A stretch of 64,000 bases of DNA, taken from the NCBI GenBank assembly GCA_021730285.1, contig CP082962.1:1240001-1304000 (forward strand), in the 5' to 3' direction. The notes under the pieces were generated by a model. That model saw nothing but the letters and a program-made list of their open reading frames with translations. It was not told the origin of the DNA and did not search any database. Source of the stretch: Desulfovibrio sp. JY (lineage in GTDB: Bacteria > Desulfobacterota > Desulfovibrionia > Desulfovibrionales > Desulfovibrionaceae). Made by a program: the position numbers and the translations under genes. Of this stretch, positions 43,915 through 64,000 are shown one piece after another; within the stretch, counting starts at the first letter, position 1, and every line of letters begins with the position of its first letter.

Positions 43915-43981
43915 GGCCTCCGGCGGCCAGGGGGAAACTTTTTGAAAAAAGTTTCCCCCTGGACCCCCTTCAAAAACTTTC
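43915..43981. repeat. Half unit of the composite hairpin repeat in a divergent promoter region
   Basis: CCAGGGGGAAAC..GTTTCCCCCTGG (43927-43962) forms a long stem, preceded by CCGGCGG and followed by the lead ACCCCCTTCAAAAACTTT. The same unit occurs at 51124-51195 and 53901-53975 in the opposite orientation. Here it sits between divergent genes, upstream of both, so it is not a simple terminator. Confidence 0.7.
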
Positions 43982-47918: not shown

Positions 47919-49826
47919 CTACGCCAAGTAACGCCGCAGCCACAGCTCCAGCATGACGAGGGCGTAGATGCGCTTGCCGTGGTCGGCCTGGCCGCGTTCG
48001 TGGGCATCGAGCAGCGCGGCCACGGCTTCGGGGCGGGCGATGTTGCGGGTCAGGTGGCTGTTGGTGAGGAGATCGCGGGCGAACTCGCGCAGGGGACCTT
48101 TGAACCAGCCGGCGAGGGGCAGGCCAAAGCCGCGTTTGGGCTGGCTGGCGATGCCGGTTGGGAGCAGGTGGGCGAAGGCTTTGCGCAGCAGATACTTGCC
48201 GGTGCGGCCGCGCAGTTTGCAGCGCACGGGCAGGCGTGCGGCGAAGGAGGCCAACTCGCTGTCGAGGAACGGGGAACGCCCTTCCAGGGCGTGGGCCATG
48301 GCCATGCGGTCGGCTTTGACCAGCAGGTCGCCGGGCAGGTAGACGCTCACGTCCGCGAAGAGATTGTGGTCCAGAGGCGCGTCGGCGTTGGCCGCGGCGT
48401 AGAAGGCTTCGTACAGGGCGACGGTATCGGCCGGGCGCGAGGCGCGTTCGAATTCCGGGCGCAGCAGGGCGTGGCGGTCCCAGGGGGAGAAGTAGGAACC
48501 CCAGCGCACGAGGCTGGCCGTGCGGGGGATGCGCGCGGCCTGGGCCAAGCGGGCGATGCCGGCGCGCCAGTCCGCTTCCACGGGTACGTTGCCCCGGGCC
48601 GGAACAAGCGAGGCCAGCCAGGGCACGAGCCGACGCGTCACGACGTTGGGCAGGCGCGCGTACACGTCGGCCAGGGGATCGAGCCAGTAGCGCTGGTAGC
48701 CGGCGAACATTTCGTCGCCGCCGTCGCCGTTTAAGGCCACGGTGACGTGCTGTCGCGTCAGCTTGCACAGGTGCCAGGCGGCCAGGGCGGACGGATCGGC
48801 AAAGGGCATGTCCGTGGCGGCCGCGACATCTTCCATGACCGCCCGGGCGTCGTCGAAGGTCAGCGTGAATTCGGTGTGTTCGGTGCCGAAACGTCCGGCC
48901 ACGGCCCGCGCCTTGGCGGTCTCGCTGAAGGCTTCCTCGGCGAAGCCGATGGAAAAGGTGCGCACGGGCCGGTCGGTGAGCCCGGCCATGACGGCGGTGA
49001 TGATGCCGGAATCCACGCCGCCGGAAAGGTGCGCGCCGAGCGGCACGTCGGCGACCAGGCGCAGGCGCACGGCCTCGGTGACGCGTTGGCGCAGCTCCTC
49101 GGCCAGGGCCTCCTCGGAGCCGGTCAGTTTCGGCAGGTAGTCGAGCCGGAAATAGCGCGTCAGGCAGGCCCGGCCGTCTCGCCACGTGAGCGAGTGCCCG
49201 GCGGGCAGGCTTTTTACGCCGGCAAAGCCCGTGGCCGGCTCGGGTACGTGCTGGAGCGTCAGGTAATGGGCTACGGCCGAGGCGTCCAGACGGGCGGAGA
49301 CGCCGGGAACGGCGAGCAGCGCCTTGATCTCGGAGCCGAAAACGATGCCGCCGTCCTTTTCCATGTAATAAAGCGGCTTTTTGCCGAAGGGATCGCGGGC
49401 CAGGAACAGCTCGCGGCGGCCGGCGTCCCAGATGGCCAACGCGAACATGCCGCGAAGCCGCGCGGCGCAGGCCGGCCCCATCTCCTCGTAAAGGTGGATG
49501 ATGGTTTCGGTGTCACTCTGGGTGGTGAAGACGTGGCCCCTGGCGGTCAGCTCTTCCCGCAATTCCTTGAAATTGTAGATCTCGCCGTTAAAGACGATGG
49601 CCAGGGAACGCGTTTCGTTGAAAAGCGGCTGGTCCCCGGTGACGAGGTCGATGACCGCCAGCCGGCGATGCCCAAGCCACACGCCGCCGCCATCGGCAAA
49701 GGCGTCGGCGTAAACGCCCTGCCCGTCCGGGCCCCGGTGGGCGATGGCCGCGCACATACGGTCCAGGCGTTCGGACAACTCCGCCCGGCCGCCCCGTGTG
49801 GCCATGAATCCGCAGATACCGCACAT
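47919..49826 (-). CDS. Asparagine synthase-like glutamine amidotransferase
   Basis: A 635-residue AsnB-type enzyme. The N-terminal Ntn glutaminase domain begins MCGICGF with catalytic Cys2, then RGPDGQG, FNGEIYNF and SDTETI. The synthetase domain has the ATP loop SGGVDSGIITAVMA, FADPSALAAW and GDGGDEMFAGYQRY. In polysaccharide loci such enzymes amidate sugar acids or peptides rather than make free asparagine, which is likely here given the glycosyltransferase neighbours. It starts 9 nt after the GT4 gene and is the last gene of the minus-strand block. Confidence 0.93.
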   Translation of the reverse strand: MCGICGFMATRGGRAELSERLDRMCAAIAHRGPDGQGVYADAFADGGGVWLGHRRLAVIDLVTGDQPLFNETRSLAIVFNGEIYNFKELREELTARGHVFTTQSDTETIIHLYEEMGPACAARLRGMFALAIWDAGRRELFLARDPFGKKPLYYMEKDGGIVFGSEIKALLAVPGVSARLDASAVAHYLTLQHVPEPATGFAGVKSLPAGHSLTWRDGRACLTRYFRLDYLPKLTGSEEALAEELRQRVTEAVRLRLVADVPLGAHLSGGVDSGIITAVMAGLTDRPVRTFSIGFAEEAFSETAKARAVAGRFGTEHTEFTLTFDDARAVMEDVAAATDMPFADPSALAAWHLCKLTRQHVTVALNGDGGDEMFAGYQRYWLDPLADVYARLPNVVTRRLVPWLASLVPARGNVPVEADWRAGIARLAQAARIPRTASLVRWGSYFSPWDRHALLRPEFERASRPADTVALYEAFYAAANADAPLDHNLFADVSVYLPGDLLVKADRMAMAHALEGRSPFLDSELASFAARLPVRCKLRGRTGKYLLRKAFAHLLPTGIASQPKRGFGLPLAGWFKGPLREFARDLLTNSHLTRNIARPEAVAALLDAHERGQADHGKRIYALVMLELWLRRYLA

Positions 49827-49835
49827 AGGCCCGCC

Positions 49836-51074
49836 CTACCGCATCGCCATCTGCCGACACAGGTCGGCGTAGGCCCCGGCCACCACGCGCCAGGAATATT
49901 CCCGCTCGGCCCTGTCCCGGCCGGCCCGGCCCAGCCGGCTGCACAGGGTGCGGTCGGCCACCAGCTTGGCCAGAACCCCGGCCAGGGAGACGGCGTCATC
50001 CGACGGCACGAGAAAGCCGGTTTCGCCGTCCACGACCAGTTCCTCATTGCCGGCGATGCGCGTGGCCGCCACGGCCAGTCCCGAGGCCATGGCCTCCAGC
50101 ACCGCGTTGGGCATGCCCTCGTCGCGCGAAGGAAAGACGAACGCGTCGGCCCGGCGCAACTCGTCCGGCATGTCCGCCCGGGACACCCAGCCGGCAAAAC
50201 GCACCCGATCCCTCAGCCCCAGACGCGCCGCCCGGTCGGTAAGCTCGGCCCGAAGCGGTCCGTCGCCAACAATGGTCGCCTCGAAACAGGCGCTTTCCGG
50301 CAGCCTGGCCAGAGCGTCGAGGAGCACATCCAGCCCCTTCTGACGCACCAGCCGGCCGACGAACAGCAGCCGCACCGGGCCTTCGCGCGTGGCCGCCGCG
50401 TCCGGGCAAAAACGCGCCGCGTCCACGCCGTTGGGGATCATGCGGATGGGCACCGCCCCGGCCGATTTTCGGGCCAGATCGGCCAGCCCCCGGCTGTTGG
50501 CCACCACATGGGCCGCGCGCTTCCATAAAAACCGGATAAACGGCCCCGTCACCTTATGGTAGGTCGCCAGATCGTAGGGCTGGAACCCCGGCACGTCGCC
50601 GCCGCGAAGCGAGACGATATAGGGCACGCCGCGAAGCACCCGCAGCGCCCAGGCCGCCGGGCCGCAAGGGATGCCGAAAAAAGCCACGCAGGCATCGGGC
50701 CGGAATTCCCTGGCCATGGCCGGCAAAGCGACCATGGCGCTCGCCGTAAACGACAACATTTCGAGCGGCGAACAATGATCCGCATGACGCCGCAAGGCCG
50801 GCAGCCGCCAGACCTCGTAGCCATCCACGACCTCGCGCTTCGGCAAATCCCCATACGACGCCGTGACCACCCGCACCACATGCCCCAAGCCCACAAGCTC
50901 CCGGGCCATGTTCGCCGTGGCGTTCCCCGCCCCGCCGCCTAATGGGGGATACTCATAATTGAGGAGAAGAAGGCGAAGAGATGAAGAGGTGCGAGAGGGG
51001 ACCCCTTTTTGGGAAAAAGGGCTTCCCCTCTCGCGCTCTCCCCTCCCAAAAACTTTCAACGGGGATGCTTCCAT
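49836..51074 (-). CDS. GT4-family glycosyltransferase with a repeat-derived 5' end
   Basis: The core (from about residue 33) is a GT-B glycosyltransferase: LRLLLLNYEYPPLGGGAGNATANMARELVGLGH opens the acceptor domain, and the GT4 C-terminal domain has LLFVGRLVRQKGLDVLLDAL and PSRDEGMPNAVLEAMASG. Homologues normally start right at this LRLLLLNYEYPP strand. Here no ATG, GTG or TTG lies between it and a hairpin repeat (50991-51034); the nearest in-frame starts are a TTG at 51059 and the ATG at 51074, so translation would pass through the hairpin and add about 30 Arg/Gly/Ser-rich residues. The true start is uncertain. Confidence 0.85.
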   Translation of the reverse strand: MEASPLKVFGRGERERGSPFSQKGVPSRTSSSLRLLLLNYEYPPLGGGAGNATANMARELVGLGHVVRVVTASYGDLPKREVVDGYEVWRLPALRRHADHCSPLEMLSFTASAMVALPAMAREFRPDACVAFFGIPCGPAAWALRVLRGVPYIVSLRGGDVPGFQPYDLATYHKVTGPFIRFLWKRAAHVVANSRGLADLARKSAGAVPIRMIPNGVDAARFCPDAAATREGPVRLLFVGRLVRQKGLDVLLDALARLPESACFEATIVGDGPLRAELTDRAARLGLRDRVRFAGWVSRADMPDELRRADAFVFPSRDEGMPNAVLEAMASGLAVAATRIAGNEELVVDGETGFLVPSDDAVSLAGVLAKLVADRTLCSRLGRAGRDRAEREYSWRVVAGAYADLCRQMAMR

Positions 51075-51195
51075 ACCGAATATTTTCCCTTTCCTTGCGA
51101 CACGTTTCAGGTGCAGCCGGATACCCCGTTAGAAGTTTTTGAAGGGGGTCCAGGGGGAAACTTTTTTCAAAAAGTTTCCCCCTGGCCGCCGGAGG
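50991..51195. repeat. Composite hairpin repeat between methyltransferase and GT4 genes
   Basis: Left hairpin 50991-51034 (GCGAGAGGGG / CCCCTCTCGC) and right hairpin 51150-51185 (CCAGGGGG / CCCCCTGG) flank inverted leads, CTCCCAAAAACTTTCAACGGGG on the left and CCCCGTTAGAAGTTTTTGAAGG on the right, around a 60-bp spacer. The element overlaps the methyltransferase stop on one side and the GT4 5' end on the other. Confidence 0.75.
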
Positions 51196-51985
51196 CAACA
51201 CGACTCACCATCACCGCCTTTGTCACGGCGAGCATGTCGGGGTCGCGGTGCTGGAAATCGGGGTGCAGGCGGCCGGCGACTTGGGCGAAGGCTTCGGGGT
51301 CGGACTCGCAGGCGAGAAGCTGCGTATCGAAGCCGGCCACGGCCAGGGCGCTCAGGTGGTCGTCGAGCCGCCAGCGGGGCAGGTCGCCGGGGTTGAGGAA
51401 ACGCTTCCAGGCGAACTTGGAGAACATGAGGAAATGGAAGGGGTATTTGAAAAAATGGTCGCGGTAGTCCACGCGGTGGAGCATGACGCCGCCGGGGGCC
51501 AGCACGCGGCCGAGGTCGGCGAAAAGCGCGGCCGGATCGGCCACGTGTTCGAGCACGGAATTGGACACCACGACATCCACGCAGTGGTCGGGCACGGTCT
51601 CCAAGGTTTTGAGGCGGTGCACGACGTTGAATTTGACCTTGGGGAAGCGGGTGGTCATGGCGGCCAGATTCTGGGCGTCCAGGCCCACGTCGAAGCGGAC
51701 GTAGGGCTCGTGGCACACCACCCGGGCCGCGCCCATGGCCACCAGGGCATAGCCGGGGCCGTTGGACGCGCCGCTGCCGATCTCGAGCACTCTTTTTCCG
51801 GCCACGGAAACGCCGATTTTGGCCAGGTCAGCGGCATAGGATTCAGCGATGGCCCAGGGGTCGGTCAGGCCCACGTTGACGCGGTAATGCGGCAGATAGC
51901 GACCGAGCAGATGCAGGCTCGATTCGCGGAAAAAGAAGCGACGGATAACCCGCAGGGTGAAGTATTCGATCTTATCGCGTTCCAA
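51167..51985 (-). CDS. SAM-dependent methyltransferase
   Basis: A 272-residue class I methyltransferase from a TTG at 51985. Motif I is VLEIGSGASNGPG, and later VVSNSVLEHVADPAALFADLGRVLAPGG, typical of the Methyltransf_11/UbiE group. The TTG lies directly after GGAGGGG and overlaps the amidotransferase stop at 51972 by 14 nt, so translation is probably coupled. The C-terminal residues GGQGETF and the stop are encoded by the hairpin repeat, implying that the repeat displaced the original end. The substrate is unknown, probably a glycan or lipid of this cluster. Confidence 0.85.
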   Translation of the reverse strand: MERDKIEYFTLRVIRRFFFRESSLHLLGRYLPHYRVNVGLTDPWAIAESYAADLAKIGVSVAGKRVLEIGSGASNGPGYALVAMGAARVVCHEPYVRFDVGLDAQNLAAMTTRFPKVKFNVVHRLKTLETVPDHCVDVVVSNSVLEHVADPAALFADLGRVLAPGGVMLHRVDYRDHFFKYPFHFLMFSKFAWKRFLNPGDLPRWRLDDHLSALAVAGFDTQLLACESDPEAFAQVAGRLHPDFQHRDPDMLAVTKAVMVSRVASGGQGETF

Positions 51986-53849
51986 GGGCCCCTCCGCCCA
52001 GGTCCATGTGCCGCAGCACCCAGAGATTCCAGAGAAAAAGACGGTGATCAGCCCCGCCGTCCCGGTGCTCGCGGATGCGCGCCTCAATGAAGCCGGCGTC
52101 GAGCCCTGCCTCCACCGACGAAACCACGCCCATGGCGAGCTGTCCCTGGGCCAGCCAGCGGCCGATGGGCACGCCGAAGCCCTGTTTTTTGCGATAGATG
52201 ATGTCGCGCGGCAAGAGCCGCTCCAGGGCTTTTTTCAGGATGTACTTGGTGGTGCCGTGGCGAAACTTGTAGCGGCTGGGGATGGTGCGTACGAAATCCA
52301 CCAGCTCGATATCCAGAAACGGCGCGCGCACCTCCAGGGAATGCATCATGCCGGCCCGATCGGTTTTGACCAGGATGTCGTCCTGCAAATAGAGGCGCGT
52401 GTAGAATTCCAGGGTCTTATCCACCATGTCCGTGGACGGGCAGTCCTCGTACACGGCCACGGCCTCGCCGTAGAGCGCCTCGGGATCGACGGGTTCGTCG
52501 AAAAGCGCGGCAATCTCGGCCGGATCGCACGGCCCGAGCCAGGTGGGGTTCCACAGGCGCGGCGGATACGAGAGTCCCCGCAGAAAACGGTTGATGCGAA
52601 ACGAGGCGGCCATGTAGCCGTGGCCCACGGGCAGGCGGGCGGCGAGCAGGGCCAGGGCCTTGTGCAGGGGCTTCGGGGCGACGCGGGAATAGAGTCCGGC
52701 GGCGCGCAGGGCCCGGAAGGGGTCGTAGCCGGCGAAAAGCTCATCCGCGCCGTCGCCGCCGACGGCCACCGTGACCTGTTTGCGCGTCTCCCGGCACAAG
52801 AGCGCGGTGGGCAAAAGCGACACGTCGCCCATGGGCTCGTCGAGCCGGCCGACGATTTCCGGCATGAGCGCCAGCGCGTCGGCAAGGGTCAGGCGCGTCA
52901 GGTGATGGGCGACGTTGCAAAAGGAGGCCGCCATGACGGCCTTGTCCGATTCGTCGAAGGAGGGGTCGTCGAAGCCGATGGAAAAGGCGGCGATGCCGGG
53001 CGCATGCCGGGCGGCCAGGGCGGTTACGGCCGAGGAATCCACCCCGCCGGAGAGAAACACGCCCAAGGGCACGTCGGCCATGAGCCGGCGGGCAACGGCC
53101 GCGTCCAAAAGCGAGACGATCCGCTCGCCCCATTCCCGCTCGGGATCGGCCGGGAGGACGTCCGTCGGCTCCAGGCAAAAGGCCCACCAGCGCTTGCGGC
53201 GCACGGAGCCGTCGCGCACGTCGACAAGGAGGTTTTCGCCGCCGGGGAGCTTGTGCGTGCCGGCGTAGAGGGCGTTTGGCGCGGGGATGAAGCCGTAGGC
53301 GAAATATTTGCGCAGCGCGGTCCGGGAGATGGACGCGCCGGCCAGGGCGGGATGGGCGATAAGGGCGGTCAACTCCGAGGCGAAGGCGAAAAATCCGGGA
53401 CGCGCGGCGTAGAAGAAGGGCTTTTTGCCGAACCGATCCCGGGAGCAGAAGAGCAGGCCGCGCGGCTTGTCGTACAGGGCAAAGGCCCACATGCCGTTGA
53501 GGCGCTTCGGCAGGTCCTCGCCCCACTCCCGCCAGCCGTGGAGCAGCACTTCGGTGTCGCAGTGATCCGAGACGAAGCGGTGGCCCCGTTCGACAAGCTC
53601 CTCGCGCAAGGAAGCGTGGTTGTAGATCTCGCCGTTATAGACCACGACCAGGTCGCCGTCGGCCGTGGCCATGGGCTGCGCCCCGCCGGCGATGTCGATA
53701 ATGGCGAGGCGACGATGGCCCAGATGCACCCCGGCCGGGGCGTCGGCATAAGCCCCCTCGCCGTCCGGGCCGCGCCGGGCGAGGGTGGCGTTCATGCGGG
53801 AAAGCGCCGCCGCATCCCCCTGTCCGACAAAGCCACAGATGCCGCACAT
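51972..53849 (-). CDS. Asparagine synthase-like glutamine amidotransferase
   Basis: A second AsnB-type enzyme of 625 residues. It has catalytic Cys2 (MCGICGF), RRGPDGEG, YNGEIYNH and HCDTEVLLH in the glutaminase domain, and SGGVDSSAVTAL and GDGADELFAGYDPF in the ATP-dependent domain. It is only moderately similar to the enzyme at 47919, so the two probably act on different acceptors. It lies between the GT2 and methyltransferase genes, consistent with amidation of a surface glycan. A hairpin repeat sits in its leader. Confidence 0.93.
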   Translation of the reverse strand: MCGICGFVGQGDAAALSRMNATLARRGPDGEGAYADAPAGVHLGHRRLAIIDIAGGAQPMATADGDLVVVYNGEIYNHASLREELVERGHRFVSDHCDTEVLLHGWREWGEDLPKRLNGMWAFALYDKPRGLLFCSRDRFGKKPFFYAARPGFFAFASELTALIAHPALAGASISRTALRKYFAYGFIPAPNALYAGTHKLPGGENLLVDVRDGSVRRKRWWAFCLEPTDVLPADPEREWGERIVSLLDAAVARRLMADVPLGVFLSGGVDSSAVTALAARHAPGIAAFSIGFDDPSFDESDKAVMAASFCNVAHHLTRLTLADALALMPEIVGRLDEPMGDVSLLPTALLCRETRKQVTVAVGGDGADELFAGYDPFRALRAAGLYSRVAPKPLHKALALLAARLPVGHGYMAASFRINRFLRGLSYPPRLWNPTWLGPCDPAEIAALFDEPVDPEALYGEAVAVYEDCPSTDMVDKTLEFYTRLYLQDDILVKTDRAGMMHSLEVRAPFLDIELVDFVRTIPSRYKFRHGTTKYILKKALERLLPRDIIYRKKQGFGVPIGRWLAQGQLAMGVVSSVEAGLDAGFIEARIREHRDGGADHRLFLWNLWVLRHMDLGGGALGTR

Positions 53850-53900
53850 AGACCTACTCTTTCACCCTCGCATGCCTCTCCGCCAATACGCCCCCTCCCC

Positions 53901-53975
53901 CTTGAAAAGTTTTTGAAAGGGGGTCCGGGGGGAAACTTTTTTCAAAAAGTTTCCCCCCGGCCGCCGGAGGCATCC
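53901..53975. repeat. Half unit of the composite hairpin repeat
   Basis: CCGGGGGGAAAC..GTTTCCCCCCGG (53925-53960) preceded by TTGAAAAGTTTTTGAAAGG and followed by CCGCCGGAGGCA. The unit is nearly identical to that at 51124-51195. It lies between the GT2 stop and the amidotransferase start and could attenuate the operon. Confidence 0.7.
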
Positions 53976-53990
53976 CCGCCTCCACTGCGC

Positions 53991-54956
53991 CTAAGGCTCT
54001 TTCTTGCACGTGCAATTGCGCGTGCAGTCCACAATGTAGGTCGGCTTGTCCTGGGACTCGTGGTAGGTGCGCATGAGGATCTCGGCGATAAGGCCCATGA
54101 AGATGGCCATGATGCCGATCAGCATGAACATGACCACCACCTGGGGCAGGGGCGTCTCGATAAAACTCTTATTCAGGAAGAACTTGCAATACAGCATGAA
54201 CACGAAAGACAGTATCGACATCATGATGCTGGCCAGCCCGAAACCGCCAAAGAGGTACATGGGCTTTTGCGCGTACTTGTCCATGAATTTGACGGTCATA
54301 AGGTCCAAAATGACCTTGATGGTGCGCTCGATGCCGTACTTGGACTCGCCGTGAATGCGCGGATGGTGGGTGACGCCGACCTCGGCCACGCGAGCGCCCT
54401 GCCAGGCGGCGTGGATGGGGATGAAACGGTGCATCTCGCCGTAGAGCTTGACGCCTTTGATGATTTTGCGGCGGTAGGCCTTGAGGGAACAGCCGTAGTC
54501 GTGCAGACGCACGCCGGAAATGGCCGAGATGAGGCAGTTGGCCACCCGGCTGGGAAAATTGCGTTTGATGGGGTTGTCCTTGCGGTCCTTGCGCCAGCCG
54601 GAGACCACGTCGTAGCCCTCGGCCAGCTTGGCGAGCAAGCGCGGAATGTCGACCGGATCGTTTTGCAGGTCCCCGTCCATGGGGATGAGGATATCACCCC
54701 GGGCCAGGTCGATGCCGGCCATCATGGCCGCGGTCTGGCCGAAATTGCGGCGCAGGTGCACCACGCGCACGCGGTCGTCGCGGCCGGCCAGATCGTCCAG
54801 GCGCTCGCGGGTGTCGTCGATGGACCCGTCGTTGACCAGAATGATCTCGTAGGGATGCCCGAGGGTGGGCAGCACGGCGTCGAGCTTTTCGTAGAGCGGC
54901 GCGATGTTATCCTGCTCGTTGTAAAGCGGAATGATAATGGAAAGCGACTCCGGCAT
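53991..54956 (-). CDS. GT2-family glycosyltransferase (GtrB/ArnC-like)
   Basis: A 321-residue polyprenyl-phosphate glycosyltransferase. The GT-A domain has SIIIPLYNEQDNIAPLYEKL, VNDGSIDDT, the metal-binding MDGDLQNDP and the acceptor-loop region around GWRKDRKDN. Two C-terminal membrane spans (about 237-260 and 272-295) match the DPM1/GtrB type, which loads a sugar onto a lipid phosphate. It ends in an unusual Cys-rich tail (CTRNCTCKKEP). It is 18 nt after the membrane protein gene at 54975, forming a carrier-loading and transfer pair. Confidence 0.92.
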   Translation of the reverse strand: MPESLSIIIPLYNEQDNIAPLYEKLDAVLPTLGHPYEIILVNDGSIDDTRERLDDLAGRDDRVRVVHLRRNFGQTAAMMAGIDLARGDILIPMDGDLQNDPVDIPRLLAKLAEGYDVVSGWRKDRKDNPIKRNFPSRVANCLISAISGVRLHDYGCSLKAYRRKIIKGVKLYGEMHRFIPIHAAWQGARVAEVGVTHHPRIHGESKYGIERTIKVILDLMTVKFMDKYAQKPMYLFGGFGLASIMMSILSFVFMLYCKFFLNKSFIETPLPQVVVMFMLIGIMAIFMGLIAEILMRTYHESQDKPTYIVDCTRNCTCKKEP

Positions 54957-54974
54957 GATCCCCGCCGTTTGTAT

Positions 54975-56666
54975 TCAGTTTCCGGATGATTGGTTTTCGG
55001 CTTCCCGGCGCGCCGCGTCCGCCGCCGCCACAAGCGGTCGGAGGTCCACCAGGCGCACCCCGGGCTCGGGGCTGGTATAGGGGAATTCGGCCGCGTCGAG
55101 AAGGACGAACTTGCCGGGTTTCGCGGCCAGTTCCCGGATACGGGCATCGAGAGGCGCGAAGAGCGGTCCCTTGGCGATGGCCTGGCCGGTGAAATCCGCG
55201 TCGCGCACCACCATGTGCGTGACGTTGTAGGCCTTGGCGAATTCCAGCACCGTGGCGGCGTCCTTGGCGTAATAGGCCGCAACCTGATGGGCCAGTCGCG
55301 GATAGTACTCCTCCCAGTAGCCCACGCTCCAGGGATGGGCCAGTTCGTAGGAGGCCAGGACGTCGCGCCGGCCGAAGGTGAGCACGTCGTCGAGAAGCTC
55401 GGGGTTGCCGGCGAGAAGCGCGTTTTTTGGCAGCTCGCGCACCGCGGCGTAGAGCGGCGCATCGGCCCGGTAGTCGTACAGTCCGACGTCGGTCAGTCGC
55501 CAGGCCCCGAGAGCGGCCGCAACGAGCAGCAGCAACACCCGCGGCCAGGGGCGCGCCAGGGCTGTGGCCAACGCGTGGCGCAGCACCACGGCCAGGCCCA
55601 GGGCGTAGACCAGATTGATGGAGTAGGAAATGTAGCGGTCCGGCACGAAGAGCTTCAGCGCCACGGCCCGGGCCAGAATGTACAAGAGCAGCGAGCCGAC
55701 GAGCAACGCGCCGACCGGGCGGCACTTGGCCAGAAGGGCCGGCCAGGGAGCGCGTTTGGCGCCGATGATGACAACAGGCAGCAGCACGACGAGGCTTATG
55801 ATGCCGGCGACAAGTCCGATGTCCAGGAACAGGCCGATGCTCTCGAAGGGCCAGTAGACGAGGTCGAAAAAAGGATTGGGCAGAGGGTAGAGATAAAGCC
55901 TGCCGGCGGCGGAAAATTCCGGACCAGCGGCCAGGGCGGCATGGCCCACCAGCGGACCGAAGCCGGAGACCGTCAGGGCGTGGTTGAAGGACCAGACGAG
56001 GCCGGCCGCCGCGATCAGGAACAGGCCGTGCCAGGGCCGTACCGGAAACGGCGCATCGGGTCGGCCCTGGATGCGGGCGAAAACCGCGTCCAGACAGGCG
56101 CAGCCGGCGCAGAGCACGGCGATATAGGGAATGAAAACCGCCTGGAGCAGGAGGATCACGGCCATGCCAAGGCCCGAGCGGCGCATCCAGGCCAGCAGAA
56201 ACAGCGCCAAAAGCGGCGCGGCGAACCCCCGCGACAGACCGCCGGAAATGTTCTTCATGAAAAACGGCATGAGCCAGGCCATGGCGGCGCAGACATAGCC
56301 CAGGACGCGGCCCTCAAGGGTCGCGCCAAGGCCGAAAAAGGCCAAGGCCAGGACCAGCAGCAAACCGCCGGTCAGCCACTTGGAAAAGACGAGCGGCCCC
56401 ACGCCGAGCCCCTTGGCGGCCAGGAAATAGAGCGCCTTGATCCCGGCCGGCACATAGGCGGCGGCATAGCGCGTCAACAGATCGGACGGGTACAGGGCCG
56501 GATCGAGCCAGCGGGCCATCCAGAAAAGCTGCTGGCGCGTATCGTCGTTGACGATAAAAGGCGAGGCCAGACCGTGGCGATGGGCCACGGCAAAAACAAG
56601 AAGGGTCAGAAAAGAGACGACGAACCAGTCCGCGCGGCGGGCCGGCGCATCAGATGGCCCGGTCAT
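54975..56666 (-). CDS. Polytopic membrane protein, probable GT-C-type glycosyltransferase
   Basis: A 563-residue protein with about 10-12 predicted membrane spans and a C-terminal soluble region (about 420-563). After the first span comes FIVNDDTRQQLFWMARWL, where the acidic pair matches the DD/DE motif of the first periplasmic loop of GT-C enzymes. GT-C proteins use lipid-phosphate sugars as donors, which the adjacent GT2 would supply. The ATG at 56666 overlaps the GNAT stop by 17 nt. Family assignment is by topology and motif; specificity is unknown. Confidence 0.72.
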   Translation of the reverse strand: MTGPSDAPARRADWFVVSFLTLLVFAVAHRHGLASPFIVNDDTRQQLFWMARWLDPALYPSDLLTRYAAAYVPAGIKALYFLAAKGLGVGPLVFSKWLTGGLLLVLALAFFGLGATLEGRVLGYVCAAMAWLMPFFMKNISGGLSRGFAAPLLALFLLAWMRRSGLGMAVILLLQAVFIPYIAVLCAGCACLDAVFARIQGRPDAPFPVRPWHGLFLIAAAGLVWSFNHALTVSGFGPLVGHAALAAGPEFSAAGRLYLYPLPNPFFDLVYWPFESIGLFLDIGLVAGIISLVVLLPVVIIGAKRAPWPALLAKCRPVGALLVGSLLLYILARAVALKLFVPDRYISYSINLVYALGLAVVLRHALATALARPWPRVLLLLVAAALGAWRLTDVGLYDYRADAPLYAAVRELPKNALLAGNPELLDDVLTFGRRDVLASYELAHPWSVGYWEEYYPRLAHQVAAYYAKDAATVLEFAKAYNVTHMVVRDADFTGQAIAKGPLFAPLDARIRELAAKPGKFVLLDAAEFPYTSPEPGVRLVDLRPLVAAADAARREAENQSSGN

Positions 56667-57786
56667 AAAGGCGGAAGACCTTGTAGCGATCCCCACCGTA
56701 ATCCATGAGCGTCTTGTTCCACTGCTCCAGGGATTCCGGGATGAGCGAACAGTCGCAGTAGTCCATCTTGGGGTGGTTTTCGAGAAAATTGACCACGATG
56801 TTGAGAATGATGGCGTGATGCAACCGCTTCCACTGGTGTGAGCGGGCCACGCCCATGATGACGGCGCGGCAGTGGGTGAGCGGTTTGACCCGGCAGTCCC
56901 ATACCAGCTGCAGCTTTTGCCACCAGCCGAACTTGCCGTTGAAGCGCTTGACCGACCGGTTCATGTCCGGCGAAACCACGGCAAAGGCCACGATGTCGTC
57001 GCCGTCGAGGATCATGGTCTCGAGATCCGGGCGCACCAACGGTTGCAGCGTGACGAATATATCCTCGTACTGGCGGTCGGTCAGCGGGATATGGCCCCAG
57101 TTTTTGCTCCAGATGTCGTTGAAGAGCTCTTTGATCTGGGGGCCGCGCTTGGCGAATTCCTTGCGTTCGATGGGCTGGATCGTGCATTTCTGGCGTTTCA
57201 AGATGCTGTCGCGCAACTTTGCCAGTTTTACCGCGTCGTGCATGGGCTTGCGGCTGATCTTGTAGGCGTACCAGTCAAACGTCTTGGTAAAGCCCCAGGA
57301 GGTCACGAGATCTTCGTAATAGGGGGGATTGTGGGTCTGCATCATGGCCGGCGGGGTATCGAATCCCTCCACGAGCAAGCCGACCTCGTCGTAGATGGAA
57401 AACGACAGCGGCCCATGCAGCCGGACCTTGCCCTTCGCCCGCACCCAGTCGGCGGCGGCATCGAACAGGGCATGGGCTGTTTCCCGGTTGTTCTCGCATT
57501 CGAAAAAACCGAAAAACCCGGTCTCGTCGTCGTGGTATTTCTCGTAGAGACCGTTGACATGGGCGGAAATACGCCCCACCACCCGGCCTTCCCGGCGGGC
57601 CAGAAAATACTGGGCCTGGCCGAACTCGAAAAACGGCCCCCTGGCCGGGTCCAGAATTTCCTGCTGCATGGGAATCAGCGGCGGCACCCAGAGGGGATCG
57701 TCGCGGTAGATTTCCCAGGCATAGCGAATAAAGGCGTCCATGTCGGCCGGACCGGCCGCAGAAACAACGAGAGAAGAATCAGACAT
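56650..57786 (-). CDS. GNAT-fold acyltransferase, YghO-like
   Basis: A 378-residue protein resembling the YghO family. It has YAWEIYRDDPLWVPPLIPMQQEILDPARGPFFEFGQAQYFLARREGRVVGRISAHVN (split across about 20-80), FFGFFECENN and a second GNAT-like half near the C-terminus (VNFLENHPKMDYCDCSLIPESLEQWNKTLMDYGG). Family members lack a proven reaction. Because it sits in an apparent operon with a serine-palmitoyltransferase-like enzyme, N-acylation of a sphingoid-type base is an attractive hypothesis. It follows the membrane-fusion gene by 11 nt. Confidence 0.8.
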   Translation of the reverse strand: MSDSSLVVSAAGPADMDAFIRYAWEIYRDDPLWVPPLIPMQQEILDPARGPFFEFGQAQYFLARREGRVVGRISAHVNGLYEKYHDDETGFFGFFECENNRETAHALFDAAADWVRAKGKVRLHGPLSFSIYDEVGLLVEGFDTPPAMMQTHNPPYYEDLVTSWGFTKTFDWYAYKISRKPMHDAVKLAKLRDSILKRQKCTIQPIERKEFAKRGPQIKELFNDIWSKNWGHIPLTDRQYEDIFVTLQPLVRPDLETMILDGDDIVAFAVVSPDMNRSVKRFNGKFGWWQKLQLVWDCRVKPLTHCRAVIMGVARSHQWKRLHHAIILNIVVNFLENHPKMDYCDCSLIPESLEQWNKTLMDYGGDRYKVFRLYDRAI

Positions 57787-57797
57787 GCTATGCCGGC

Positions 57798-58748
57798 TTA
57801 TTTTTCGGGCTGAATGGTGATCTGCCCCTTGAGACCTTCCTTGAGCTCCAACGACGGGTTGGGGATGGTCAGCTCGACGTCGTAATACGAGGGCTGCTGC
57901 AACGTGGAGGGGATGGGGGCCCAGGGGATGCGCGACACGGTGGCGGAATACGTCTTGCCCGGCATGGAGTCGAAGGTGACGGTGGCCGCCTCGCCTTCCT
58001 TGAGCTTCTGGGCCTCGATCTCATGGACCTGGGCCCGGATGATCATGGGGTTGAGCTTGCCGACCTGGAACAGCTCCGCGTCCTTGGCCAGTTTGACCCC
58101 GAGGCGCAACTCGGGATTCATCCACATGACATAGCCGTCGGTGGGCGCCTTGATGATGCCGTCCTTGGGCATCTTGCCCACACCTGCGGCCTTGCCGAAG
58201 CGGTCCTCGGCCAGTTCCACGTGATCGGACAGGAGTTCGCGGGCCAGGGCCAATTGCTCGGCCAACGAGGTCTTTTCCTTCCGGTAAACCTCGATCTCCT
58301 TGGAGTTCATGGTCAGGGACTGCTGGGAGGCCATGTTGCGCTGGCTCATGGCCTGCAGTTCCTTGGCCTTGGCCGTCAGACGATCGATCTCCTTGTCGGC
58401 CATGGCCATCTTGTACTCGATTTCCTTGATGTTGGCCGGCGAGAGCTTGGTCTTCTCGTCCATGCGCGTTTCAAGGGGAATCTCATAACGGGCCAGGATG
58501 TCGTCGCGTTTGACCTGCTGGCCAATCTTTCCGGTAAGGGCTGTTATCTTGGCGTTGTACGGCAAAAAGACCGACAATTTGACCGGGCTGTACAGCTTGC
58601 CGGAGAAATTGATCGTCGCGGGCCGAAACGAGTCCGGCACCTCCTGCTTGGCGGCCTGCTTCGGGGCCGGGGCCTTGTCTTGGGCCATGCCGGCCGTACT
58701 TGCGGCCAACAGGCAGAAGGCAGCCAAGAACGTGACAAGCTGCCGCAT
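57798..58748 (-). CDS. Membrane-fusion (HlyD/MacA-like) periplasmic adaptor
   Basis: A 316-residue periplasmic adaptor with a cleavable signal peptide (ends near TAGMAQD). It has the biotinyl-lipoyl half motifs (LTGKIGQQVKRDDILARYEI and GIIKAPTDGYVMW) flanking a helical hairpin (about 105-190), then beta-barrel segments. It is shorter than typical MacA and has no membrane anchor. Together with the TolC-like, LolD-like and MacB-like genes upstream it would complete a tripartite exporter. It lies 1 nt after the TolC-like stop. Confidence 0.88.
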   Translation of the reverse strand: MRQLVTFLAAFCLLAASTAGMAQDKAPAPKQAAKQEVPDSFRPATINFSGKLYSPVKLSVFLPYNAKITALTGKIGQQVKRDDILARYEIPLETRMDEKTKLSPANIKEIEYKMAMADKEIDRLTAKAKELQAMSQRNMASQQSLTMNSKEIEVYRKEKTSLAEQLALARELLSDHVELAEDRFGKAAGVGKMPKDGIIKAPTDGYVMWMNPELRLGVKLAKDAELFQVGKLNPMIIRAQVHEIEAQKLKEGEAATVTFDSMPGKTYSATVSRIPWAPIPSTLQQPSYYDVELTIPNPSLELKEGLKGQITIQPEK

Positions 58749-58749
58749 G

Positions 58750-60438
58750 TTAGATGTTCTCCATGATGGTGGCGTTGATGTAGCGGTCCTGGAAGTCGCC
58801 GGAGATGGACCGAACCTCGAGCAGGTCGACGTCGCGGGTGTATTCCTTCGTGATCAGGGTCTGCCGGCTGTCGAGGTAGTCGGCCATGGCCTTGACGATG
58901 GCGTCGTACTCGGCCTGGCCGGATTCGAAGCGGAACTGGGCCTGCTGGGTGGTCAACTTTTGCAGCTCCACGGTGGACGCGGCGAATTTGACGTCGGAAT
59001 TGGCCGAACGCAGCTTGGACAGCGCCTGTTGGAACTCGCTCATGATGGTGAAATCCAGGTTGCGCCCTTCGACGTTTTGCTGGGCCAGCTTCTTGTACTG
59101 CCGGCTCACGTCGCGGCTCTTGGTCCACCAGTCGAAGGGAAAATTGAACGACAGGTTCGGGTACATGAAGGGCAGCGTCGAGGTGTCGTCCTTGTAGGAC
59201 GTGTTGTTGAGCGTGGACACCGAGGTGAAGCCGAAGGAGAAAGTCGGCAGAAAGTGGATGTAGGACAGGGCGATATTCTTACGCTGCAGGGAGACTTCGT
59301 AATCGTGGATGCGCAGCTTGAAGGAATGCTTGCGCAACCGTTCGTCGGTCACCGTGGCCGGGTTGAAGTTCTCGAGGACCTGCCCGGGTGCGTTGGTCAG
59401 GTCGAGATTGATTTTCTGGACAAAGGGGATGCCCATGATGAACTTCATTTCGTCCTGGAGCACGCTGCGGGTGGTGCGCAGCTTCTCCGCCTCGGCCTTG
59501 GCCATGTTGATGCGGGTCTCGGCGATACGCACGTCGAGCTCCGCGCCCTGGCCGAGACCGGCCTTGGTCTTCACGTACTCAAGGTTTTTGACGGCCAGGT
59601 TTTCCCGTTCCTTGGCCAGCTTGAGCATGGAATCGATCATGCCGAGCTGCAGGAAGGTGGTGCCGAGCCGCTTGAGCCCGCCGTCGATGACCTTGAGGTG
59701 GGACAGGACGGCGATGTTGACCAGCTCTTTTTTCGCCTGGACCTCGAAAGCGGTCAAAAGCGGGTTCCAGGCCCCGGTGGAAAAGCTCAGGTCGTATTTC
59801 TTGCGGGTGCGGTTGCTGGAGTTCCCCGCGTAGACGGCGTTGGCCGCCGAGATGGAATTGGAAAGGTTTTGCGCCGGGTTGGACGAGGCGTTTTCCAGGA
59901 CCGAGGACCAGGCCGTGGGCGCCACGGTGTTTTTATACTCCGGCAGGCGCAGGTAGAACGTCGTGCTCATCACGATGGTGGGGATGTACTGGGAATAGGC
60001 GTCCCCCACGTCCAGCCGCTTGGATTCGATCTCGATGGAGCTTTTGGTCAAAAGCGGCGACTGGGCCAGGGCCACGCGCACGCATTCCTGGAAGTCGGCC
60101 GGCGAACGCAACGTGGTCGAGCCGAGGGCGAGCCCCCCGGCGGCCTTGGCGAAACTCGGCGCGGGCTCGTCCTCGGACGCCTTGGGCGCGGCCTTGGCGG
60201 CCGGGGCCGCAGCAGCCGGAGCGGCGGAGGCCGGAGCGGCAGCAGTCGGAGCAGCGGCGGCAACGCCCTTGTCCCGGGTATAACGGGCCGAGCCGGCCCA
60301 GGCCGGCAGACAAGCGAACAGGACTGCCAGACACAGTGTCACGGCCATGGCCCGTGCCGTCGCGCGCTCCGCCCAAAAGCGGCGGACGCCCCCCTGCGAC
60401 GCCTCGGTCCGATGTCCGTTGGTGAGTTCCCTGGTCAT
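58750..60438 (-). CDS. TolC-family outer-membrane channel
   Basis: A 562-residue protein with an extended basic N-region, a signal peptide (ATARAMAVTLCLAVLFACLPAWA), an Ala/Pro-rich linker (about 60-95), and the duplicated helical/strand TolC architecture (for example LGQGAELDVRIAETRINMAKAEAEKLRT, the long helix of one repeat). It forms the outer-membrane exit duct for the export system. GGGGAGGAG precedes the ATG at 60438, which favours the longer start over 60348. Confidence 0.9.
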   Translation of the reverse strand: MTRELTNGHRTEASQGGVRRFWAERATARAMAVTLCLAVLFACLPAWAGSARYTRDKGVAAAAPTAAAPASAAPAAAAPAAKAAPKASEDEPAPSFAKAAGGLALGSTTLRSPADFQECVRVALAQSPLLTKSSIEIESKRLDVGDAYSQYIPTIVMSTTFYLRLPEYKNTVAPTAWSSVLENASSNPAQNLSNSISAANAVYAGNSSNRTRKKYDLSFSTGAWNPLLTAFEVQAKKELVNIAVLSHLKVIDGGLKRLGTTFLQLGMIDSMLKLAKERENLAVKNLEYVKTKAGLGQGAELDVRIAETRINMAKAEAEKLRTTRSVLQDEMKFIMGIPFVQKINLDLTNAPGQVLENFNPATVTDERLRKHSFKLRIHDYEVSLQRKNIALSYIHFLPTFSFGFTSVSTLNNTSYKDDTSTLPFMYPNLSFNFPFDWWTKSRDVSRQYKKLAQQNVEGRNLDFTIMSEFQQALSKLRSANSDVKFAASTVELQKLTTQQAQFRFESGQAEYDAIVKAMADYLDSRQTLITKEYTRDVDLLEVRSISGDFQDRYINATIMENI

Positions 60439-60459
60439 GCGCTCCTCCCCGTCGAGCGT

Positions 60460-61161
60460 TCAACCGTTGAGATAGCCGTCCGTCAGGACGCACGTGCGTG
60501 TGCAATGCTCGGCCGTCATCGCGTCGTGGGTGACCACGACCATGGCCGTGCGGGCTTCTTCCGTAATCTTTGTAAAATACTCCAATACACGCAGGCTGTT
60601 TTCCCGGTCAAGCTGGCCGGTGGGCTCATCCGCCAAAATAAATTCCGGCTCGTTGACCAGGGCTCTGGCGATGGAAACCCGTTGTCGCTCGCCACCGGAA
60701 AGCCGGTTGGACGGCTGGTGGATGCGATGTTCGAGGTTGACCATGGACAGCGCCTCGCGGATCCGGTCGGGCCGCTCCTTGCGGCGCACGCCGGCGTAGA
60801 TCAGCGGCAACTCCAGGTTCTCGTACACCGTGGAGTTTTCAAGCAGGTCGCAGGTCTGAAAAACGAACCCGAGCATCTCCCGGCGAAAAATGGCCTGCTG
60901 GTCGCGGGTCAAGGTCAAAACCTCCACCCCCGCCACTTTATAGGAACCCGTGGAGGGCGGCTGGAAAAGCCCCAGGCAGAAAAGCAGCGTGGATTTTCCG
61001 GACCCCGAAGGCCCCATGACCGCGACCATTTCCCCACGACGCACGTGCAGGTTGACGTCCTTGAGCACCGGAATGGCCTCAAGGCCGGTGTTGTAGGTCT
61101 TGGTCAGCCGGTTGATGTCGATGACCAGGGCATTGTCGTCGGTGTGGTCGTAGTTACTCAT
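60460..61161 (-). CDS. ABC transporter ATP-binding protein (LolD/MacB type)
   Basis: A 233-residue ATPase. Walker A is GPSGSGKST, the Q-loop is in FVFQTCDLLE, the signature is LSGGERQR, Walker B is FILADEPTG and the switch His is in VVVTHD. The pattern is that of the LolD/MacB/FtsE group that partners MacB-like permeases. The ATG at 61161 overlaps the permease stop by 8 nt (ATGAGTAA). It powers export together with the adjacent permease, adaptor and channel. Confidence 0.94.
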   Translation of the reverse strand: MSNYDHTDDNALVIDINRLTKTYNTGLEAIPVLKDVNLHVRRGEMVAVMGPSGSGKSTLLFCLGLFQPPSTGSYKVAGVEVLTLTRDQQAIFRREMLGFVFQTCDLLENSTVYENLELPLIYAGVRRKERPDRIREALSMVNLEHRIHQPSNRLSGGERQRVSIARALVNEPEFILADEPTGQLDRENSLRVLEYFTKITEEARTAMVVVTHDAMTAEHCTRTCVLTDGYLNG

Positions 61162-62407
61162 AGCGCATCGCATCCACGACCTGCATCCGGCTGGCCCGGA
61201 TGGAGGGATAAAGGCCCGCGCCGACGCCGAGGATGGCGGCGAAGGCAAGACCCATCATCAGGCAGAAGAAGAACAGCCCCTCCGGCGGCCGGGAGCCGAG
61301 CATCCGACTCATGTATTCGATGCCCACCCGTCCGAGGATCACGCCCACCACGGACGAGGAGAAGGTGACGCAAAGGGCTTCGAACAGGAACTGGTAGAGG
61401 ATGTCGGTATCCAGGGCGCCCATGGCTTTTTTGAGGCCGATCTCCCGGGTCCGGCTGGTGACCGTGGCCATCATGATGTTCCAGATGCCGAAGCCGCCGA
61501 GGATCATGGTGGCCACGATGGAACTGTAGATGAAAAGCTCCACCCACCAGAAGATGCGCTGCACCTGCTTGAGAGGCTCCCAGGCCACATTGACCCGAAG
61601 CCCCCGGTCGATCTGGTTGGCCTTGACCACGCCGGGAATGGCCTTGGCCACCGGGGCCACGTCGTCCCAGGTGGCACAACGCACGTAGGCGCTGTAGGGC
61701 ATGGAGATGTTCACCACCCGGGCCAGGGCCGTGGTGATGGGCAAAAACACGAACTGGCTGCGGTCGCCGGCGCGCACGCCGCCGAGGATGCCGATGACGG
61801 TATAGAGGTTGTCGTCGATGGACAGAATCTTGCCGATGGCTTCCTTGTCCGCGCCGAACATCTGGCGGGCCAGATCCACGCCCACCACGCACACCCGGGC
61901 CCCTTCCTTGACGTCTTTTGCGTCGAAAAGCCGGCCCTCGGCGGCGTTGAAGGAGAAGACTTCCCAGTAGTTGGCCTCGCAGCCCACCAGGTTGAAGCCA
62001 AAAAGCCTGTCGTGCCAGGTGGTCAGCGCGCTGGTCTTGAGCGCCACCTTGGTGATGTCGGAAACGCCGGGGATGCGGGCGATGGCGTCCAGGGTCCGGT
62101 CGCGGAACCATTCCTGGCGCTCCAGCGGCTGCTGCTCGAACATCACGTTGATGATGGTCGCGCCGCCGAGCAGGTCGAGGTCGTTGTTGAAATTCTTCTT
62201 GAGGTCGTTGCCCATGGTGATGATGACGATAAAGCCCGCCATGCCAAGGGCAATGGACGCCAGGACGCCGATGTAGCGGCGACGCTTGCGCACGACCTCC
62301 CGCACGCTGACACGCACGAGGTCGTAATACCGCATGGGGCCGGCGCCGCGACGCCGAATGCGGTCGAGTTCCGCGACGGTTATCTTTTTTCGTTTTCCAA
62401 TAGCCAT
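61154..62407 (-). CDS. MacB-like ABC transporter permease
   Basis: A 417-residue permease of the FtsX/MacB type. It has one N-terminal span (about 45-65), a large periplasmic MacB_PCD domain (about 70-280) with Cys and aromatic residues, and three C-terminal spans with the conserved RTREIGLKKAMGA loop contacting the ATPase. MacB systems act as mechanotransmitters pushing substrates from the periplasm through TolC. The start may be the ATG at 62407 or 62335; neither has a strong ribosome site. Confidence 0.92.
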   Translation of the reverse strand: MAIGKRKKITVAELDRIRRRGAGPMRYYDLVRVSVREVVRKRRRYIGVLASIALGMAGFIVIITMGNDLKKNFNNDLDLLGGATIINVMFEQQPLERQEWFRDRTLDAIARIPGVSDITKVALKTSALTTWHDRLFGFNLVGCEANYWEVFSFNAAEGRLFDAKDVKEGARVCVVGVDLARQMFGADKEAIGKILSIDDNLYTVIGILGGVRAGDRSQFVFLPITTALARVVNISMPYSAYVRCATWDDVAPVAKAIPGVVKANQIDRGLRVNVAWEPLKQVQRIFWWVELFIYSSIVATMILGGFGIWNIMMATVTSRTREIGLKKAMGALDTDILYQFLFEALCVTFSSSVVGVILGRVGIEYMSRMLGSRPPEGLFFFCLMMGLAFAAILGVGAGLYPSIRASRMQVVDAMRYE

Positions 62408-62474
62408 GCTGTGTACCGGGAGACGTCCCAGAAATAACGGATGCTCCCGCGCCTATACCGAAGGCAGGGGCGCT

Positions 62475-63761: not shown

Positions 63762-63887
63762 GGCGATTGTTTCTTCCTCGTGTGTTTTGGAAGCGGACGG
63801 CGGGGAGCTTGGGGGGAGAGGTTCGCCGCCCAGCGGCCCTTTGGCCAGGCCGCATTCCGGCGTATGACCGGAGAAACGGCCAATACT

Positions 63888-64000
63888 TCAAAGGCCGGAG
63901 CTTGGCAAGTCCTGGGGATTACGACCGAAGGCCCGGGCCTCGCGGACATGGGCGGCCAGCTGGCCGAGGATCTTGCCAAGGGCCAGCCGGGCCCGGCCAA
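63888..64000 (-). CDS. C-terminal end of a gene cut by the window edge
   Basis: A minus-strand frame open to the right edge gives GRARLALGKILGQLAAHVRE and ARAFGRNPQDLPSSGL before a stop at 63888. The sequence has the amphipathic helical character and codon use of a real C-terminus. It lies 126 nt upstream of the PLP enzyme on the same strand and may be the first part of the same block. Product unknown. Confidence 0.4.
   Translation of the reverse strand, partial: GRARLALGKILGQLAAHVREARAFGRNPQDLPSSGL

Follow-up and report, generated by a model that had tools for sequence, protein, structure and literature searches.

In Caulobacter, serine palmitoyltransferase (SPT) and the bacterial ceramide synthase bCerS are cytoplasmic and the ceramide reductase CerR is periplasmic (PMC11087976); cerS (CC_1154) directly follows the genes for LptF2 and LptG2 (CC_1156/CC_1155; PMC11324152). 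A 2024 paper describes the route of sphingolipids from the inner to the outer membrane as not known (PMC11324152), and in Sphingomonas sphingolipids replace lipid A (PMC11087976, PMC11324152). For another glycolipid a pump has been described: HgdD-DevBCA is MacB-like and exports the heterocyst glycolipid (PMC6161253). Here we analyze an operon of Desulfovibrio sp. JY in which an SPT-like gene directly precedes the genes of a MacB-type exporter. It lies in a stretch of 64,000 nucleotides (the window), positions 1240001-1304000 of the complete 4.69 Mb genome (G000, contig C1). Judged from its gene content, the operon rather probably makes a ceramide-like glycolipid and exports it through the envelope.

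Gene order and linkage of the exporter

On the minus strand, from 63761 down to 47919, run twelve open, collinear reading frames, beginning with a pyridoxal phosphate (PLP) enzyme and ending with AsnB2. The gaps between them range from -29 to +92 bases, with a single exception of 141. They are listed together with the part of per1 that lies in the window:

63888..64000, minus strand: per1, small protein of 175 amino acids, 3' end only in the window; no Pfam match; adjoins SPT in 12 genus loci, L043, L044 and L193-L195
62475..63761, minus strand: SPT-like PLP enzyme (alpha-oxoamine synthase, AOS), 428 amino acids; profiles, tree, nearest structure 3a2b
61154..62407, minus strand: ABC_P, MacB-type permease; MacB_PCD and FtsX, profile against structures
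60460..61161, minus strand: ABC_A, MacB/LolD-type ATPase; profile matches
58750..60438, minus strand: OMF, TolC-like outer-membrane protein; OEP/TolC-like profile match
57798..58748, minus strand: MFP, HlyD/MacA-type periplasmic adaptor; HlyD_D23 match
56650..57786, minus strand: GNAT, bCerS-family N-acyltransferase, 378 amino acids; homology, neighbourhood, tree, predicted structure
54975..56666, minus strand: GTC1, membrane protein, probable GT-C glycosyltransferase; membrane-protein look, weak Dpy19 matches in homologues only
53991..54956, minus strand: GT2, ArnC/DPM-like polyprenyl-phosphate glycosyltransferase; profile matches
51972..53849, minus strand: AsnB1, asparagine-synthase-family glutamine amidotransferase; Asn_synthase/GATase matches
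51167..51985, minus strand: MTase, S-adenosylmethionine methyltransferase, start uncertain; profile match
49836..51074, minus strand: GT4 glycosyltransferase; profile match
47919..49826, minus strand: AsnB2, asparagine-synthase-family glutamine amidotransferase; Asn_synthase/GATase matches

The operon extends past the window into three upstream genes, GTC2, per2 and per1 (seen in L009, from 7889 upward), of which per2, a small protein like per1, likewise has no Pfam match. The resulting order is GTC2-per2-per1-SPT-ABC_P-ABC_A-OMF-MFP-GNAT-GTC1-GT2-AsnB1-MTase-GT4-AsnB2. When the operon genes were compared with 18 fetched relative loci, this 15-gene order was found in full in 10 of the 12 genus loci (L031, L033-L041), and in the other two (L032, L042) it runs to the contig end after MTase. 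It is complete in a locus of another genus (L043) and recurs in a third genus (L044), where GTC1 is missing and the contig stops after AsnB1. L047 has SPT, exporter and GTC1 with GNAT 3.6 kb before SPT; L045, L046 and L048 contain GNAT and no SPT. The methyltransferase shows merely 44-46% identity in the genus loci L032, L033 and L035, the other genes more. Such conservation of gene order is far beyond chance.

The exporter corresponds to a complete set of the MacAB-TolC/DevBCA type: a permease with MacB core and FtsX domains, an ATPase, an adaptor and an outer-membrane component, with ATPase and permease being separate proteins as in DevCA. Against solved structures, the permease profile scored 169, 163 and 160 bits with MacB and 29.8 bits with LolF; an assignment as LolCDE was rejected on this difference and on the lolCE model (38/362). 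The ATPase reached 215 bits with LolD, 208 with DarD and 207 with MacB, all below the models' own cut-offs.

We then considered 37 loci of this SPT clade (the window, L031-L044, L047, L049-L051, L171, L172, L193-L208), among which L050 or L051 may share its species with another genome counted. In all 37, which fall into three family codes (f1, f12, f96), permease, ATPase, outer-membrane component and adaptor lie downstream of SPT. GTC1 is present in 27 (L049 and L199 end before its place) and GNAT in or near the cluster in 28; in the remaining nine GNAT lies elsewhere in the genome, and even there the exporter stays beside SPT. As a control, we took the 51 other SPT loci among the loci of the best 80 GNAT relatives: 48 have no permease homologue, and in L089 and L104 it is located at least 5 kb from SPT. 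G224 (L203), a member of another family, contains SPT-ABC_P-ABC_A-OMF-MFP followed by homologues of GT2, AsnB2 and GT4. An earlier note, made from the letters of the window alone, had pointed out the twelve collinear genes and a complete tripartite exporter in line with the PLP enzyme; both hold, the order recurring in relatives and the exporter following SPT throughout. The genes upstream of the window and the missing lpxC and lpxB (see below) were beyond what that note could show.

Several further observations concern the surroundings of these genes. A 28-base palindrome, GGGGAAACTTTTTNNAAAAAGTTTCCCC, occurs at window positions 43931-43958, 51154-51181 and 53929-53956 (0.00 expected in shuffles) and in 69 copies genome-wide, with 0 in the reversed control. 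Two copies interrupt the 3' part of the operon, one in the GT2/AsnB1 gap and one in the MTase/GT4 gap; the nearest relative has one copy, in the MTase/GT4 gap (L031 15148). An Rfam scan returned one tRNA and nothing else, a promoter scan no more than the shuffle level and a terminator scan 29 hits versus 16.0 in shuffles. Upstream of the operon, L009 13575-19774 contains a sub-threshold Wzz match, a Wza-like gene (Poly_export, SLBB), a second HlyD-type adaptor and a large membrane-like protein.

Kinship of the PLP enzyme and the GNAT protein

By profile, the PLP enzyme belongs to the AOS family. Its nearest solved structure is the Sphingobacterium SPT 3a2b (313 bits), followed by AONS/KBL (244 bits), another SPT (222 bits) and cysteate acyltransferase (28eh, 203 bits); the last was scored against the enzyme, and the trees took in SPT, KBL, AONS and ALAS rows without it. 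In a tree of 33 rows, the six operon enzymes form one clade (100/100, stem 1.0) inside a 25-row SPT group (95/94), with KBL, AONS, ALAS and two odd plasmid rows outside. In a tree of 25 rows, from which 3a2b, L163, L169, L170 and four trio rows were left out, the operon enzymes stand with 13 SPT rows on an SPT side supported at 100/99.9. Approximately unbiased (AU) tests reject a grouping of the operon clade with KBL (p 0.00198) and with AONS (p 0.000168). Because of this tree support and these rejected groupings, we regard the enzyme as SPT-like on a divergent branch of its own. K246, D213 and H215 align with the lysine, aspartate and histidine of 3a2b, which we take to be the PLP lysine and its partner residues; as these are common to AOS enzymes generally, the match is not specific for SPT.

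The GNAT protein has no match in Pfam or NCBIfam, and no solved relative was found by sequence. Its predicted structure (mean pLDDT, the predicted local distance difference test, 93.7) retrieved tandem or two-domain GNAT structures best in Foldseek (7q3a, E 4e-13), with N-myristoyltransferase lower down. Kinship with the ceramide synthase was compared via homologues from Sphingomonas (32.7% over 84% of the query, E 2e-45) and Roseomonas (31%, E 3e-45), the Caulobacter protein itself standing outside the comparison. In Roseomonas mucosa (L161) the genes are arranged as acyl-AMP ligase, short-chain dehydrogenase/reductase, ..., acyl carrier protein (ACP), SPT, ..., DGK-family, ..., LptF/G, LptF/G, desaturase, GNAT homologue, and in Sphingomonas parapaucimobilis (L162) as NAD(P)-binding, ACP, SPT, ATP-binding, LptF, LptG, desaturase, GNAT homologue. 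The GNAT homologue thereby occupies the position of cerS in Caulobacter, and the SPTs of both clusters exceed an NCBIfam cut-off. A Streptomyces plasmid has SPT, GNAT and epimerase in a row. A scan of named genomes yielded at least 525 GNAT relatives; among the best 80, whose contigs are often short, the locus contains an SPT homologue (at least 60% of the query) in 54, an epimerase in 48 and both in 45, one of the epimerase matches (L051) being weak. In a 50-row tree, rooted for drawing only, the operon GNATs and four located elsewhere in SPT-operon genomes form a 14-row clade (100/99), and the Streptomyces trio row L163 is weakly placed on their side. These sequence relationships place the operon GNAT in the family of the bacterial ceramide synthase, beyond the clade of the usual bCerS.

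The earlier note had named both kinships; it had also held that a phylogeny placing the PLP enzyme with AONS or KBL would overturn its reading, the very placements that the AU tests reject.

How often the two genes meet was examined in an even draw of 395 genomes from 246 genera of the phylum. This SPT occurs in 17 genomes (11 genera) and the GNAT, at E<=1e-60, in 109 (75 genera): it is present in 17/17 genomes with this SPT and in 92/378 without, the Fisher values (p 1e-10, by genus p 1e-6) being descriptive because the genomes are related. Among 59 relatives, SPT was found in 20, GNAT in 20 and both in 19; G027 has this SPT on two short contigs (outside the 37 loci) and no GNAT match. As regards the co-occurrence analysis that the earlier note had proposed, GNAT is present in every genome of the draw with this SPT, and the exporter in all 37 loci of this SPT clade.

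Other GNAT neighbourhoods are recorded here in their own right. A polyketide synthase (PKS)- or fatty acid synthase (FAS)-like gene lies beside a bCerS-like GNAT in four SPT genomes, G033, G334, G394 and G412 (L047 569-9695; L222 7835-16952; L223 4654-15430; L224 6841-17907), three of them with a CerR-like gene; it encodes 2431 amino acids in L047 (NMO, KS, AT, ACP, KR and DH domains) and 2636 in L222. GNAT paired with a CerR-like epimerase, with no SPT in the locus, is found in genera of the same family (L048 6830-8994; L225 7798-10025; L226 7420-9563). YghO of E. coli, a GNAT homologue (32.5% to the window GNAT), has a fatty acyl-AMP ligase and an NAD epimerase as neighbours, and the 7 kb inspected contain no SPT (L245 1-4092).

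Putative head-group genes and lipid A genes

Downstream of GNAT, GT2 scored best with the ArnC model (212 bits, below the cut-off of 529), AsnB1 and AsnB2 are Asn_synthase/GATase proteins that both exceed the asn_synth_AEB cut-off, and GT4 and AsnB2 resemble EPS/PEP-CTERM families. The window's own GTC1 protein gave no profile match and no solved relative; 5 of 15 homologues show weak Dpy19 matches (best E 0.011), and we consider it a probable GT-C glycosyltransferase. GTC2, with a PMT_2 match at cut-off, is a second GT-C protein. Of the glycan genes proposed in the earlier note, GT2, GT4, the two amidotransferases and the methyltransferase are borne out by profile, and the GT-C-like label of its membrane protein goes back to membrane-protein look and the weak Dpy19 matches.

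For lipopolysaccharide (LPS) genes, we searched with the profiles of lpxC (TIGR00325) and lpxB (TIGR00215). The window's complete genome has no lpxC match; 4 of 14 control genomes, including E. coli and Caulobacter, and 362 of the 395 genomes of the phylum draw do match. Within the window's family, lpxC is missing in the window genome, g36 (11/11) and g37 (3/3) and present in g35 (2/2). For lpxB, 27 genomes were picked after the lpxC result: 9 of the 14 genus members, 8 other carriers and 10 non-carriers. No match was obtained in 18 (nine genus members, G018, G022, G023, G028, G271, G335, G449, G134 and G167), all with the SPT operon except G134 and G167 of g36; the nine with lpxB are G033, which has SPT, PKS and CerR, and eight without this SPT. 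Counted by genus in the family, lpxB is missing in 6/7 with the SPT operon and in 1/9 without (p 0.006). In g36, the loci of G134 and G293 have GNAT beside a CerR-like gene. Outside the family, all 13 SPT carriers of the phylum draw have lpxC; a phylum-wide link was rejected on this count (13 of 17 SPT genomes), and a link between SPT and loss of lpx genes consequently holds only inside the window's family.

These sulfate reducers thus seem, by profile, to be without key lipid A genes. One report describes Kdo-containing lipid A from a D. desulfuricans strain (PMC3354558), and a review mentions LPS of gut Desulfovibrio (PMC10383351); if g36 is Desulfovibrio sensu stricto, missing profile matches are no proof of missing LPS. 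Among the papers listed, a literature search on Desulfovibrio and lpx genes gave nothing pertinent, and the main text of PMC3087551 contains no Desulfo- word. Directly upstream of GTC2, L009 10556-11569 holds a Lip_A_acyltrans (LpxL-like) gene in a genome without lpxC match; such a gene also adjoins GTC2 in G010 (L174).

Possible product and comparison with known systems

The proposed pathway would proceed in four steps. Initially, as the phylogeny suggests, the SPT-like enzyme would form a long-chain 3-keto-amine by condensing an acyl thioester with an amino acid, serine or alanine being probable. GNAT, to judge from its family and neighbourhood, would N-acylate this amine and yield an oxidized ceramide-like lipid. 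In one Caulobacter model, N-acylation reportedly precedes reduction; since Spt and bCerS are cytoplasmic there and CerR periplasmic, an oxidized ceramide-like product before export is chemically sensible, and as a clear CerR is missing in the window genome, the ketone would be kept or reduced by another enzyme. In the third step, GT2 may load a polyprenyl-phosphate sugar that the GT-C proteins would move to the lipid at the inner membrane's outer face, in the manner of ArnC and ArnT on lipid A, with GT4, the two amidotransferases and the methyltransferase presumably elaborating the head group. Finally, as the strict linkage suggests, the MacB-type pump with its adaptor and TolC-like partner would take up the lipid at the inner membrane and deliver it to the cell surface, where in the window's genus it may stand in for lipid A. 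We regard it as doubtful, if conceivable, that lipid-A-less Desulfovibrionaceae have an outer leaflet of a ceramide-like lipid, glycosylated and possibly 3-keto, which divergent Spt and GNAT make without CerR and a dedicated MacAB-TolC-like pump delivers.

A number of observations weigh against a ceramide-like product. A CerR profile built from 17 epimerases of GNAT clusters gave 351-408 bits in G016, G033, G394 and G334 (the profile itself includes two of them), and the window genome has no clear CerR: its best score is 84 bits over part of the profile, with none at E<=1e-35. None of the SPT models NF047600, NF047599 and NF047603 was matched over its cut-off (396.5/640, 331.5/500 and 231.7/670 bits), the best NCBIfam model being that of the Bacteroidota SPT at 396.5 of 640 bits. 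The 14-row GNAT clade is nested in a 20-row group (100/99) that is separate from the alphaproteobacterial rows and almost every trio row, and the six other members of this group have no SPT in the stretch examined. GNAT-family genes often occur where this SPT is absent (92 phylum genomes), and L054 carries a distant permease (23% identity) 0.3 kb after another SPT. No acyl carrier protein or acyl-AMP ligase was seen in the cluster, and no genome-wide search was made for them.

Further counts bear on these points. Seven of ten further enzymes scanned fall below the SPT cut-offs, including SPTs beside cerR and GNAT; three exceed one (Roseomonas, Sphingomonas, Parabacteroides). Loci of 20 of the 92 genomes with GNAT and without this SPT were read: in 10 there is another SPT together with an epimerase, in 2 an epimerase without SPT and in 8 neither. 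Among 22 genomes with this SPT, CerR is clear in 3 (G033, G334, G394), each time in a cluster that also contains a PKS-like gene and a GNAT from a different clade; 12 contain epimerases at 136-161 bits, which may be other enzymes or divergent CerR, and the remaining 7, which all belong to the window's family, have none at E<=1e-35. The score is 157 bits in G018 and at most 136 in other genus members. The NAD epimerase upstream of the operon (L009 11642-12592) was rejected as CerR (84 bits partial, LegB-like 82 bits) and remains a weak reductase candidate. Near three scanned of the six other GNATs lies a PAP2_3 membrane protein (L242 6210-7073; L057 6624-7565; L055 11156-12175), a family that includes AUR1-type enzymes. 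The earlier note had advised a search for ceramide reductase genes beyond 64 kb, and none clear emerged in the genome; its reading of lipid synthesis and export keeps the SPT kinship, the GNAT kinship and the linked exporter, and the evidence speaks against a plain ceramide pathway. With no clear CerR, SPT cut-offs missed and the GNAT outside the bCerS clade, we name the product no closer than ceramide-like.

Different products are conceivable. If the PLP enzyme used alanine, glycine or cysteate, the product, without CerR, would be a 1-deoxy-, keto- or sulfono-lipid, so that the export logic would be kept with no ceramide formed. The long stem on which the operon SPTs sit (length 1.0), the missed SPT cut-offs and the genome's lack of a clear CerR would agree with this, as would a Black Sea study suggesting that Desulfobacterota and/or Bacteroidota make 1-deoxy and sulfono-1-deoxy ceramides (PMC11334938); we nevertheless hold it to be unlikely, the nearest solved enzyme being an SPT (313 bits) and not cysteate acyltransferase (203 bits; outside the trees).

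Alternatively, PLP enzyme and GNAT might make a small N-acyl amino-ketone, signal- or antibiotic-like, for the pump to secrete, with the sugar and amide genes forming a neighbouring surface-polysaccharide locus. The substrates of MacB-type pumps include small molecules and peptides, upstream lie a Wza-like gene and a sub-threshold Wzz match, GT4 and AsnB2 resemble EPS/PEP-CTERM families and two palindromes split the operon's 3' part. However, GTC1 accompanies SPT and exporter in 27/37 loci, G224 of another family has GT2, AsnB2 and GT4 homologues after the SPT-exporter genes, and the GNAT family is that of ceramide synthase, which makes this version improbable. We assign a similarly low probability to an exporter that serves a lipoprotein, drug or other substrate and is linked to SPT by co-regulation of envelope genes: The ATPase is equally close to LolD and MacB, but the permease profile is far from LolF, and the adjacency is strict in 37/37 loci over f1, f12 and f96, even where GNAT lies elsewhere.

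We return to a ceramide-like glycolipid and its export. Judged by title and abstract opening, none of the papers listed in literature searches, which cover part of the literature, links an SPT gene with an exporter of the MacB type; among these papers, the earlier remark that no described system has this gene set holds. With the Spt-bCerS-CerR pathway of Caulobacter, Sphingomonas and Bacteroidota, the window genome shares an SPT-family PLP enzyme and a bCerS-family GNAT, both connected to that pathway by trees and neighbourhood; it differs in that a clear CerR is missing, both enzymes form clades of their own and no AcpR/AasR was seen in the cluster. PfSgaAB of Pseudomonas fluorescens, a two-gene cluster for polyketide-derived sphingolipids (PMC12134224), resembles it in an AOS with SPT role and in the PKS/FAS-like gene beside GNAT in G033, G334, G394 and G412, whereas no PKS gene was seen in the window's operon. 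ArnC/ArnT is matched by GT2, best with ArnC, and by GT-C-like proteins, but the ArnC cut-off is missed, and the window genome has no lpxC match and nine genus genomes no lpxB match. As for transport, LptF2/LptG2/LptC2 have been suggested in Caulobacter (PMC11324152), in contrast to the MacB-type pump here. As this pump adjoins its SPT gene in all loci read, it is a direct, deletable candidate for sphingolipid transport. If the lipid replaces lipid A, outer membranes without lipid A would gain an independent example, with an export route other than Lpt, and, if true, this would be a second way to construct a Gram-negative outer membrane. The closest counterpart of the exporter is DevBCA-HgdD(TolC) of Anabaena, which likewise consists of a MacB-type permease, a separate ATPase, an adaptor and a TolC-like protein; the Dev models score below cut-off (DevA 168 bits, DevB 32 bits), and the window operon is distinguished by its sphingolipid-type enzymes.

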